From Microcaldota archaeon (GTDB taxonomy: Archaea > Micrarchaeota > Micrarchaeia > Micrarchaeales > CABMGC01), in assembly GCA_021817305.1 (NCBI GenBank), contig JAKAVL010000033.1, forward strand, positions 1-34,484: DNA of 34,484 nt. The letters are read 5' to 3'. This document shows positions 3,748 to 11,359 of the stretch, piece by piece. Made by a program: the position numbers and the translations under genes. Below the pieces are notes generated by a model that saw nothing but the letters and a program-made list of their open reading frames with translations, had not been told where the DNA came from and searched no databases. Within the stretch, counting starts at the first letter, position 1; the number at the start of each line of letters is the position of its first letter.

Positions 3748-4614
3748 TCATATTACTAGGAATATCAGATTGCCGAAGAGCAACGAGAACACAACGCCTA
3801 TGAAGAAGAATGCGGCGAGAGGCGCTGCATTTCTGTAGACGGGAATCTTCCTCCTCTCTGATTTCAGGTCGCGCATTAGCCTTGTGGTAGCGAGCCTCCC
3901 GAAATTCCTCGATTTCCTCCTGAAGTATGCTAGGTCAGACCTAGACATGAGATTTGTCGCTATCATATCATCAGTGGTAAGTTCCTTCGGCAGCAGCATG
4001 GAGACCATGCGGTAGTTCATGAGGCGTTCGAATACAAACATCATTCCGGAGAATATGGCCAGTGCCATTATAACTGCAATGCCTATCACGCCTATGCCTG
4101 CAAGCGCATACATCATGACTGCGAGGAGGGCGTATGCCGTTACAAGGATTATTCCGGTAAGTACCCTCTCTTTCTTTACATGGAAGTTCTTTTCAAGTGG
4201 GCTTTTCCTTGCGAATAGCATATAGTAGAGGACCAGAACTATGACTGCGGAATACCCTGCGCTGATGAATACGGAGAGAACGAATGGCATCGAGAGCTGG
4301 GGCACATGCGCAAGCAGGGGTGCAGGCTGCAGCGGCAGCAGCAGGGCTATGGTCACGAGCTCGAGGACGTCGCCAGCTCCGAGAAGCCCTCTGCTGTATA
4401 GGAGATAGCCTAGACCTGCGACGAGAAGCGCGACGGCTGCGCCTATGAGAAGTTCGGTGACCGGATAGGACACGCTCAGCGCTATGGCGACGGCGAGCGC
4501 TGCGTACGCGAACAGGTTCGGCACTTCGCGCCTGTTGAACAGGTCGAAGAGCGCATATGCGAGGGCTATGCCTATAAGCAGTATTAAGCGTATCACGTAA
4601 AAATAGTCAGGCAT
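3748..4614 (-). CDS. type IV prepilin/archaellin signal peptidase (PibD/FlaK-like, A24)
   Basis: 288 residues with several hydrophobic helices. The two aspartates of this aspartyl protease family are visible: D24 in FDLFNRREVPN and D82 in the GAGD motif (GLLGAGDV). These enzymes cut class III signal peptides of archaellins and type IV pilins at the cytoplasmic face of the membrane. The C-terminal half adds more membrane helices and a basic cytoplasmic loop (about 205-265), making it longer than minimal PibD. A likely substrate is the pilin-like protein at 10805, which has the KRAQ processing site. It lies upstream of the Mre11 gene on the same strand, with about 60 bases between them. Confidence 0.85.
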   Translation of the reverse strand: MPDYFYVIRLILLIGIALAYALFDLFNRREVPNLFAYAALAVAIALSVSYPVTELLIGAAVALLVAGLGYLLYSRGLLGAGDVLELVTIALLLPLQPAPLLAHVPQLSMPFVLSVFISAGYSAVIVLVLYYMLFARKSPLEKNFHVKKERVLTGIILVTAYALLAVMMYALAGIGVIGIAVIMALAIFSGMMFVFERLMNYRMVSMLLPKELTTDDMIATNLMSRSDLAYFRRKSRNFGRLATTRLMRDLKSERRKIPVYRNAAPLAAFFFIGVVFSLLFGNLIFLVI

Positions 4615-4663
4615 TGATTTACCTCGGAAATCTTTTCGGCAGTAAACATTTTTGCAGAGAAGG

Positions 4664-4671
4664 TTTAAATA
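4664..4671 (+). promoter_or_regulatory. TATA-box-like element before the structured RNA candidate
   Basis: TTTAAATA is preceded by purine-rich AGAGAAGG, a plausible BRE. By normal archaeal spacing it would start RNA at about 4690-4695, which is inside the candidate outer helix (4679). It may therefore serve the 4867 gene or a shorter RNA. Confidence 0.45.
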
Positions 4672-4678
4672 GGTAATT

Positions 4679-4836
4679 GCGCCCTAGTAGTAAACGAGGA
4701 AGTAAGAAATCTGGCAGGGTTTGAAATGCAGGAAATCGCAGTGTGGAAGTTTTTTGGGTTCGTACACCCGTCATCCACAGCTATAGCGATGAAGGTCTGC
4801 ATGAATAGGTTGTATCTGTCACCTGCATAAGGGCGC
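4679..4836 (+). ncRNA. candidate structured RNA, unassigned
   Basis: The segment folds by eye into one nested, co-linear structure. An outer helix (GCGCCCT 4679-4685 with AGGGCGC 4830-4836) is followed by GCAGG/CCTGC (4714-4718/4822-4826), ATGCAG/CTGCAT (4726-4731/4797-4802), ATCGC/GCGAT (4735-4739/4786-4790), TGTGGA/TCCACA (4742-4747/4774-4779) and GGGT/ACCC (4756-4759/4766-4769). A T-run (4849-4855) follows and could be an archaeal terminator. It is not a tRNA, 5S or SRP RNA. GAGGAAGT near the 5' side and ATGAAT near the 3' side faintly recall RNase P conserved blocks, but it is much shorter than known RNase P RNAs and ACAGAA is absent. It could instead be a leader of the downstream HTH gene. 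Confidence 0.5.
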
Positions 4837-4866
4837 AAAAAATAACTCTTTTTTTCTGGTGCTCGC

Positions 4867-5214
4867 ATGCAAGTGGCAAAATTGGTAGTTAGAGGTGTAA
4901 AGGTTCAGAGTGAGCCTCGCTTCAACTCGAAGGAACTGCTGATCTTATCGGAGCTTGGCCTGGATCAGGTGCCATCGGCAACGAGCTTCGTTGAGTTCAT
5001 ATCAGGCAGGTATGGAATGTCAGCAAGCGGGGTATGGTACACGCTTAAGAAACTTAAGAGAAAGAGGGTGGTGGACTTCATGGAAAAGGGCGAGGGGTAC
5101 AAGCCCCTCTCCCTTACGGAGCTGGGCATGGGCGTGTTCAGGCGGCAGCAGAGCTGGCCTTCCTACAACGCGTACTATGCCGTGGAGAGAGCGGCGCCTA
5201 AGCTGAACTTCTGA
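4867..5214 (+). CDS. winged-helix DNA-binding protein
   Basis: 115 residues. The central part (about 22-85) has the pattern of a winged helix: a first helix (KELLILSELGL), a second (SATSFVEFISGRYG), a recognition-like helix (SASGVWYTLKKLKRK), then a basic beta-wing leading into LTELGMGVF. It is probably a transcription regulator; target and ligand are not visible. It follows the structured RNA candidate, with a T-run between the two, so either the RNA is a separate gene or it is a leader controlling this one. The C-terminus meets the convergent MGMT-like gene, overlapping by about 17 bases. Confidence 0.65.
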   Translation: MQVAKLVVRGVKVQSEPRFNSKELLILSELGLDQVPSATSFVEFISGRYGMSASGVWYTLKKLKRKRVVDFMEKGEGYKPLSLTELGMGVFRRQQSWPSYNAYYAVERAAPKLNF

Positions 5215-10804: not shown

Positions 10805-11359
10805 TTGGATTGGCGCAAGAATTCGAAAAGGGCGCAGGCAGCCCTCGATTTCATGTCTTCTTACGGCATAGCCATAATAATAATCATAATAGTGATGACA
10901 GCTGTCTACACCCTCAGCACGTCCAACAAGCACATATTCGCGCAGTCGTGCTCCGGATCCTCGGGCTTTGCGTGCGGGCCGTTCTCTTTGAATTCCCTAG
11001 GAGTGCTGAACATAACGCTGCAGCAGGCCACGGGCGGTGACATAACCATATACGGGCTTGCGTGTTCATCGACCATAAGCAACACCGCATCTAACTCGCT
11101 GCCGGGATACGGAAACGCGTACGTCACGAACAGCATTGCGTATTATCCGGCTGGGGGCAGCCCTGGCACTGGCGCCGTCGTATACACGGGAAGCGGCAGG
11201 CAGTTCCTGCTGTATTGCTTCTCTGCATCGCAGGAGGCATCGAAGGCCAATTCCTCAGGCGGTGATTTCATAGGCTACCTGTGGGCCAACTTCTCGATCA
11301 GCGGAAGGCCAGGCAGGATAACCCAGCTCGTTGCCACGGTAGAGGCAAGGTACACGTAG
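10805..11359 (+). CDS. pilin-like secreted protein with class III signal peptide
   Basis: 184 residues. The N-terminus is basic (WRKNSKRAQ) followed by ALDFMSSYG and a long Ile-rich helix (IAIIIIIIVMTAVYTL). This is the arrangement of archaeal type IV pilins, cut by prepilin peptidase between A and Q of KRAQ. The mature part is rich in Gly, Ser, Asn and Thr with five cysteines (SCSGSSGFACG, GLACSS, LLYCFS). The start is a TTG that abuts the rps2 stop; there is no nearer ATG, so it is probably translated by coupling. The peptidase at 3748 is the likely processing enzyme. A pilus or adhesin role is inferred. Confidence 0.75.
   Translation: MDWRKNSKRAQAALDFMSSYGIAIIIIIIVMTAVYTLSTSNKHIFAQSCSGSSGFACGPFSLNSLGVLNITLQQATGGDITIYGLACSSTISNTASNSLPGYGNAYVTNSIAYYPAGGSPGTGAVVYTGSGRQFLLYCFSASQEASKANSSGGDFIGYLWANFSISGRPGRITQLVATVEARYT

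Follow-up and report, generated by a model that had tools for sequence, protein, structure and literature searches.

Gene content of the locus

The window, by which the whole stretch of 34,484 nucleotides that was analysed is meant, is contig 11 of an 840-kb assembly that is 81% complete and most likely belongs to Micrarchaeota. The part described here comprises, on the forward strand, a TATA box (TTTAAATA, 4664-4671), a leader ORF (uORF) of 34 codons plus TAA (4726-4830, MQEIAVWKFFGFVHPSSTAIAMKVCMNRLYLSPA) and the gene of a winged-helix HTH protein of 115 aa (4867-5214) preceded by the SD motif GGTG (4858-4861). Upstream of the HTH gene and pointing away from it lies a type IV leader peptidase gene (PF01478; 3748-4614, reverse strand), a homologue of which stands beside most HTH loci among the loci listed. 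Farther along the window an ORF at 10805-11359 (forward strand) has an N-terminus with QAALDF followed by a hydrophobic stretch, which looks like an archaeal pilin signal; the product is a possible substrate of the A24 peptidase.

The HTH protein is a predicted DNA-binding regulator, as indicated by its homologues, an AF2 model and Foldseek. The model has a mean pLDDT of 77; values are near 90 in the core but fall under 50 at residues 1-3 and at residues 9-13. The best solved matches were MarR, PadR and related winged-helix proteins and SSV1 F-93, the best with an E value of 1.8e-3 and none below 0.001. The protein of the window gave no Pfam match at 0.001 and no NCBIfam match; 13 of 49 homologues match PF13412 at E 0.01, and some match general winged-helix models.

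Homologues of the regulator were identified in 66 of the 79 genomes of the family and in 143 of the 164 genomes of the order. At the level of the class they were found in 136 of 295 genomes at E 1e-8, all of them in the order among the matches listed. A DNA search of 60 related genomes gave 75% identity over nearly all of 4640-4880 in genome G004 and 69% in G006, the other matching genomes being aligned mainly in the promoter stretch and from the end of a 158-nt candidate RNA (4679-4836, discussed below) into the HTH gene.

The comparisons comprise 90 regulator loci (L numbers), 70 from the window's family and 20 from a sister family. The former are 70 of the 71 matches of the HTH search, the last one (E 4e-4) being omitted, and the latter are 20 of the sister family's matches in the order-wide HTH search. 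An SD-like motif precedes the HTH gene in 69 of the 70 family loci and 19 of the 20 sister loci; as the motif itself helped to place the HTH starts, these counts lean high. Two HTH copies each are present in G016 (L054 and L078), G075 (L040 and L052), G077 (L058 and L073) and G080 (L048 and L067), which belong to one genus, and every copy has its own leader ORF.

Promoter

In 66 of 70 family loci and 18 of 20 sister loci a strict TATA hexamer precedes the HTH start by 155-245 nt; control stretches of the uORF contain one in 4 of 70 and 4 of 20, respectively. The earlier note on this DNA had correctly placed the box of the window at 4664. The distance from TATA box to uORF start has a median of 43 nt in the family, therefore the 5' leader is short. 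From archaeal TATA-to-start spacing the RNA presumably starts near 4690-4697. A single transcript, beginning about 25 nt after the TATA box, would carry the uORF and then the HTH gene.

The leader ORF

A uORF of 22-60 codons is found at the same place in all 90 HTH loci (70 family, 20 sister), upstream of the HTH gene and after the TATA box where one was identified. It forms a previously unannotated small-ORF family, next to every regulator copy examined. The start is GTG in two of the 90 loci, and the stop lies 18-44 nt before the HTH start (36 nt in the window). The uORF of the window has no clear SD, and a GGTG in front of the uORF was identified in none of the 70 family loci and in 8 of the 20 sister loci. 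A script located the uORF starts and stops, except in L038, L073, the 15 sister loci used for the pN/pS estimate given below, L182, L186, L193, L194 and L200, where this was done by eye; in L198 the uORF start is one codon too early, and the HTH start was probably set too early.

Reading across the whole uORF, sense frames 0, +1 and +2 are open in 90, 1 and 16 of the 90 loci, frame 0 being open by construction. Counting loci with at least 30 codons open upstream of the stop, frame 0 qualifies in all 84 loci compared and the other frames in 2 and 21 (the remaining 6 loci were judged by eye); the frame-0 count is partly circular, as ORFs were sought, and what tests the ORF is how far the other two frames fall behind. 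An antisense ORF of 67 aa (4665-4868, reverse strand) was rejected, antisense frames being open across the uORF in only 12, 33 and 2 of the 90 loci.

The encoded peptides are highly variable, with a mean column identity of 13% among 64 members; those of G004 and G006 are alike. For 33 disjoint pairs, chosen from 84 loci by similarity of the HTH protein and compared without the hairpin codons, the raw pN/pS is 0.77 and synonymous changes number 123 of 485 (p 0.0096); in a frame-blind alignment only 46 of 144 gaps are multiples of three. By these measures amino-acid selection on the uORF is weak at best. A search of Pfam and NCBIfam assigned the peptides to no family; four families were hit by one member each of 64, with a best E of 0.006. 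Since the reading frame stays open at every locus although the encoded residues change, the signal appears to be translation itself, and translating the leader seems to matter most, not the peptide sequence.

A stem can form inside the uORF between its start (4726-4732) and 4796-4802, with 7 of 7 pairs in the window, G004 and G006. It is a variable element: across the 90 loci, pairing of the uORF start with the 3' half of the same uORF averages -10.3, and with swapped halves -8.6 (sd 0.25).

The proposed coupling hairpin

The end of the uORF and the beginning of the HTH gene are the two arms of a hairpin. The 5' arm (4817-4836) comprises the last uORF codons, the stop and 6 nt beyond; the loop (4837-4858) is A-rich and ends in a T-run; the 3' arm (4859-4878) contains the GTG of the SD, the HTH start codon and codons 2-4. 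The segment 4816-4879 folds at -24.6 kcal/mol (z -4.53), and none of 200 shuffles was as good. The stem of the window is broken by 1x1 and 2x2 internal loops; the uORF stop has its first base paired and its other two within an internal loop. The stem also contains the HTH start. This pairing, which the earlier note had missed, is much stronger than the fold drawn there and shares the 3' strand of its outer helix.

The arms coevolve. Averaged over the 90 loci, the pairing energy is -21.7 kcal/mol for own arms and -13.8 for swapped arms (sd 0.4), a difference reached in 0 of 5000 permutations that ignore kinship. Within 69 family loci (L073, which starts with GTG, was omitted, and the HTH start of L079 was shifted to the next ATG) the values are -21.7 for own, -15.3 for swapped (sd 0.39) and -8.8 kcal/mol for shuffled arms, again with 0 of 5000 permutations, kinship ignored, and the own duplex beats all 100 shuffles in 61 of the 69. 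The same was observed in 15 of the 20 sister loci, in which the HTH gene is mostly GTG-started and has different following codons: own arms -22.2, swapped -17.5, sd 0.73, 0 of 5000 permutations (kinship ignored). Control stretches within the uORF pair with the HTH arm at -8.9.

Stem length in the 90 loci ranges from 9 to 20 pairs, with a median of 16. All three bases of the HTH start codon are paired in 78 of them and at least two in 88; the uORF stop codon is fully paired in 67. In L090, with a TGA stop, the stem is preserved with different letters. For the named pairs of the family alignment, 82.5% of cells are paired, compared with 26-50% when the arms are slid, and 64 cells carry double changes, compared with 29.4 after shuffling. 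As an adverse result, RNAalifold gave 0 pairs on the same MAFFT alignment, in which several arms are misplaced. A strict form of the hairpin pattern is present in 8 of 60 genomes, at one place in each and always at the HTH locus.

The first residues of the HTH protein are somewhat conserved within each family: 44 of the 70 family loci encode Q at residue 2, and 14 of the 20 sister loci encode Q at residue 3. Since this end is poorly ordered in the AF2 model, RNA pairing is sufficient to explain their conservation.

Four loci of one genus (L032, L039, L041 and L059) have a weaker coupling hairpin and a stop-to-start distance of 19-24 nt, perhaps reflecting a change of mechanism; L032 is the only locus of the 90 weaker than -12.5. 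In 33 of 90 loci (for example L065, L084, L087 and L088) a second hairpin directly precedes the coupling hairpin; visual inspection of L030, L044 and L051 suggests that some of its bases also belong to the coupling 5' arm.

Probable translational coupling

Translation of the leader ORF probably opens the hairpin and permits translation of the regulator. With the end of the uORF, its stop included, paired to the SD region, the start and the first codons of the HTH gene, the HTH start would be closed; a ribosome reaching the leader stop would break the 5' arm and free that start. Translation of the HTH gene would then require translation of the leader ORF and keep pace with it, which is translational coupling of the RNA-unfolding type, and the level of the HTH protein would respond to conditions that alter leader translation. 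In addition, the same ribosome could reinitiate after crossing the 36 nt to the HTH start (18-44 nt among the loci). Two features expected of such coupling were looked at: a co-directional upstream ORF ending near the downstream start was identified at 90 of 90 loci, and a structure that masks the downstream RBS and includes translated upstream sequence is indicated by prediction and by coevolution, RNAalifold alone giving 0 pairs.

This arrangement of leader ORF and hairpin is nearly universal in one Micrarchaeota order. A broader reading is offered tentatively, with rather more doubt than confidence: translation of a fast-evolving leader, acting through the stop/start hairpin and often a second hairpin, would set the level of the regulator across the order and so report ribosome state or amino-acid supply. 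A nearly universal regulator would then be serving as a reporter in archaea with very small genomes. Gene regulation in the Micrarchaeota group is almost untested, the organisms being hard to grow and to manipulate. The element is concrete, conserved and testable, and the test that it suggests is to break the pairing and restore it by a matching change.

Leader ORFs and translational coupling are known already, and archaeal coupling is known for overlapping genes. The trp and erm leader-peptide attenuators combine a short leader ORF with hairpins by which the start of the following gene is hidden or exposed; the present locus is like them in having a short leader ORF and a hairpin at the next start, and unlike them in that no regulatory codon run or common stall motif is apparent in the leader. 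In RNA-unfolding coupling, as described in PMC12548453, translation of a co-directional upstream ORF disrupts structure at the downstream start, and the mechanistic work covered there is mostly from E. coli. Base pairing between genes and a co-directional upstream ORF are shared with that system; the differences from that account are a fast-changing leader of 22-60 codons, a stop usually within the stem, a gap of 18-44 nt and a Micrarchaeota host. Termination-reinitiation in overlapping archaeal genes was described by Huber 2019, as cited in PMC7531240. Those pairs have coupled translation and an SD before the second gene in common with the arrangement proposed here, whereas in the present loci the ORFs are about 30 nt apart and joined by a coevolving hairpin. 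PMC8092293 describes mgtQ, located before mgtB in Salmonella, as a translation-aborting small ORF that needs acidic residues; it likewise overlaps stem-loops (alternative ones in mgtQ) that control translation of the next gene. Unlike mgtQ, the leader peptides here are poor in acidic residues, and no homology is claimed. Among the open-licence papers listed in literature searches, none reported an archaeal leader ORF whose stop and the next start form a coevolving hairpin, nor any such element in Micrarchaeota.

Alternative explanations

It is conceivable, if doubtful, that the leader is a leader-peptide attenuator, in which the position or speed of the ribosome on the uORF picks among hairpins: the stem inside the uORF, the coupling hairpin and termination at a T-run. 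That the regulator would in this way answer to a cue such as tRNA charging or ribosome state is likewise possible rather than likely. The second hairpin and the stem inside the uORF are compatible with an attenuator sensitive to where the ribosome stands, but they are not enough to claim one. Near the uORF end, a stretch of 42 nt folds better than chance, with a mean z of -1.28 over the 90 loci, and is below -1.5 in 33 of 90, compared with 6 of 90 for the first 42 nt; the uORF interior pairs with its own 5' arm at -8.88 and with those of others at -8.28 (6 of 2000 permutations, 90 loci); and the spacer has a T-run of 5 or more in 39 of 70 family and 12 of 20 sister loci (51 of 90). On the other side, the window has no good local hairpin there (4790-4836, z +0.52), the T-run sits in the loop and not after a stem, and neither a shared single-amino-acid run nor a common stall motif was apparent in the alignment or composition of the peptides.

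The composition of the peptides is one argument for regarding the uORF as a functional small cationic protein, which would either partner the regulator or be a toxin whose antitoxin is the HTH protein, the hairpin only setting their ratio. Net charge is zero or positive in 89 of 90 peptides, D and E make up 2.6% of residues compared with 13.9% in the HTH protein, and W is present in 65 and C in 67 of 84 peptides. Purifying selection, although weak, points the same way, as does the complete co-occurrence of uORF and HTH gene in the 90 loci. We consider this reading unlikely: a column identity of 13% and the lack of any Pfam or NCBIfam family speak against a functional peptide. Toxin-antitoxin modules have a patchy distribution, unlike an HTH gene present in 143 of 164 genomes of the order, and no known toxin or antitoxin family was matched by the uORF peptides (Pfam, NCBIfam) or by the HTH protein (NCBIfam).

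A separate uORF followed by an HTH gene with its own promoter in the A/T-rich spacer, transcribed as a leaderless RNA, is very improbable. In 4 of 70 family and 3 of 20 sister loci a TATA-like hexamer does stand 15-40 nt before the HTH start, but most loci lack one, and the TATA box is instead upstream of the uORF in 66 of 70 and 18 of 20. A leaderless start needs no SD, yet an SD-like motif precedes the HTH gene in 69 of 70 and 19 of 20 loci, and the coevolving hairpin would be left unexplained.

The candidate structured RNA

The stretch 4679-4836 had been proposed in the earlier note to be a structured RNA of about 158 bases with six nested helices, perhaps a strikingly reduced RNase P RNA, alternatively a new RNA or a leader of the HTH gene. 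The RNase P proposal drew on the single-sequence fold and on blocks, GAGGAAGT and ATGAAT, which are indeed present. It is already refuted, since a canonical archaeal RNase P RNA is encoded on another contig of this genome (RF00373, contig C46 of G000, 3992-4225, 99.6 bits against a cut-off of 84). No Rfam family, RF00373 included, reached its gathering score in the whole window, and a search of 4600-4900 up to E 10 gave no match on the strand of the candidate and a single weak one (E 5.1) on the other. The CR-V motif, which belongs with P4 to the RNase P core and which we take to be ACAGRANNNNRCUUA, matches the genome's real RNase P RNA with 1 mismatch (L001:1678-1692); no CR-V-like ACAGRANNNNRCTTA with up to 2 mismatches was found in 4679-4836.

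Any other free-standing structured RNA at this position is practically excluded along with it, since what is conserved here is an ORF together with a hairpin extending into the HTH gene. What the evidence favours among those proposals is the leader of the HTH gene, containing by its sequence pattern a translated-looking ORF. The region had been described as holding no gene: no forward ORF of at least 60 aa lies inside it, 60 aa being the limit of the ORF listing, but the conserved leader ORF of 34 codons falls below that limit and fills 4726-4830. A coding leader can therefore mimic a structured RNA for a reader of a single sequence.

The six-helix fold itself was obtained as drawn, with an MFE of -47.6 kcal/mol, but it barely beats chance, 8 of 200 dinucleotide shuffles being as good (z -1.68); on the reverse strand 7 of 200 of its own shuffles fold equally well, and the portion likely to be transcribed, 4692-4815, has a z of -0.78. 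The caveat that transcription from the TATA box would begin inside the outer helix was right, the expected start lying 3' of the 5' strand of that helix. This closing helix of 7 bp (4679-4685/4830-4836) forms in the window but is not conserved, as 4 of its 7 pairs fail in G004, the sole close relative alignable there (in G006 one side coincides with the contig end). Covariation over the three genomes (window, G004 and G006) was 0.133, compared with 0.138 for shuffled alignments, and with the loss of the outer helix in G004 the fold was rejected. The T-run said to follow the candidate is present, and 6 pairs of the sub-helix 4805-4810/4814-4819 are kept in the window, G004 and G006.
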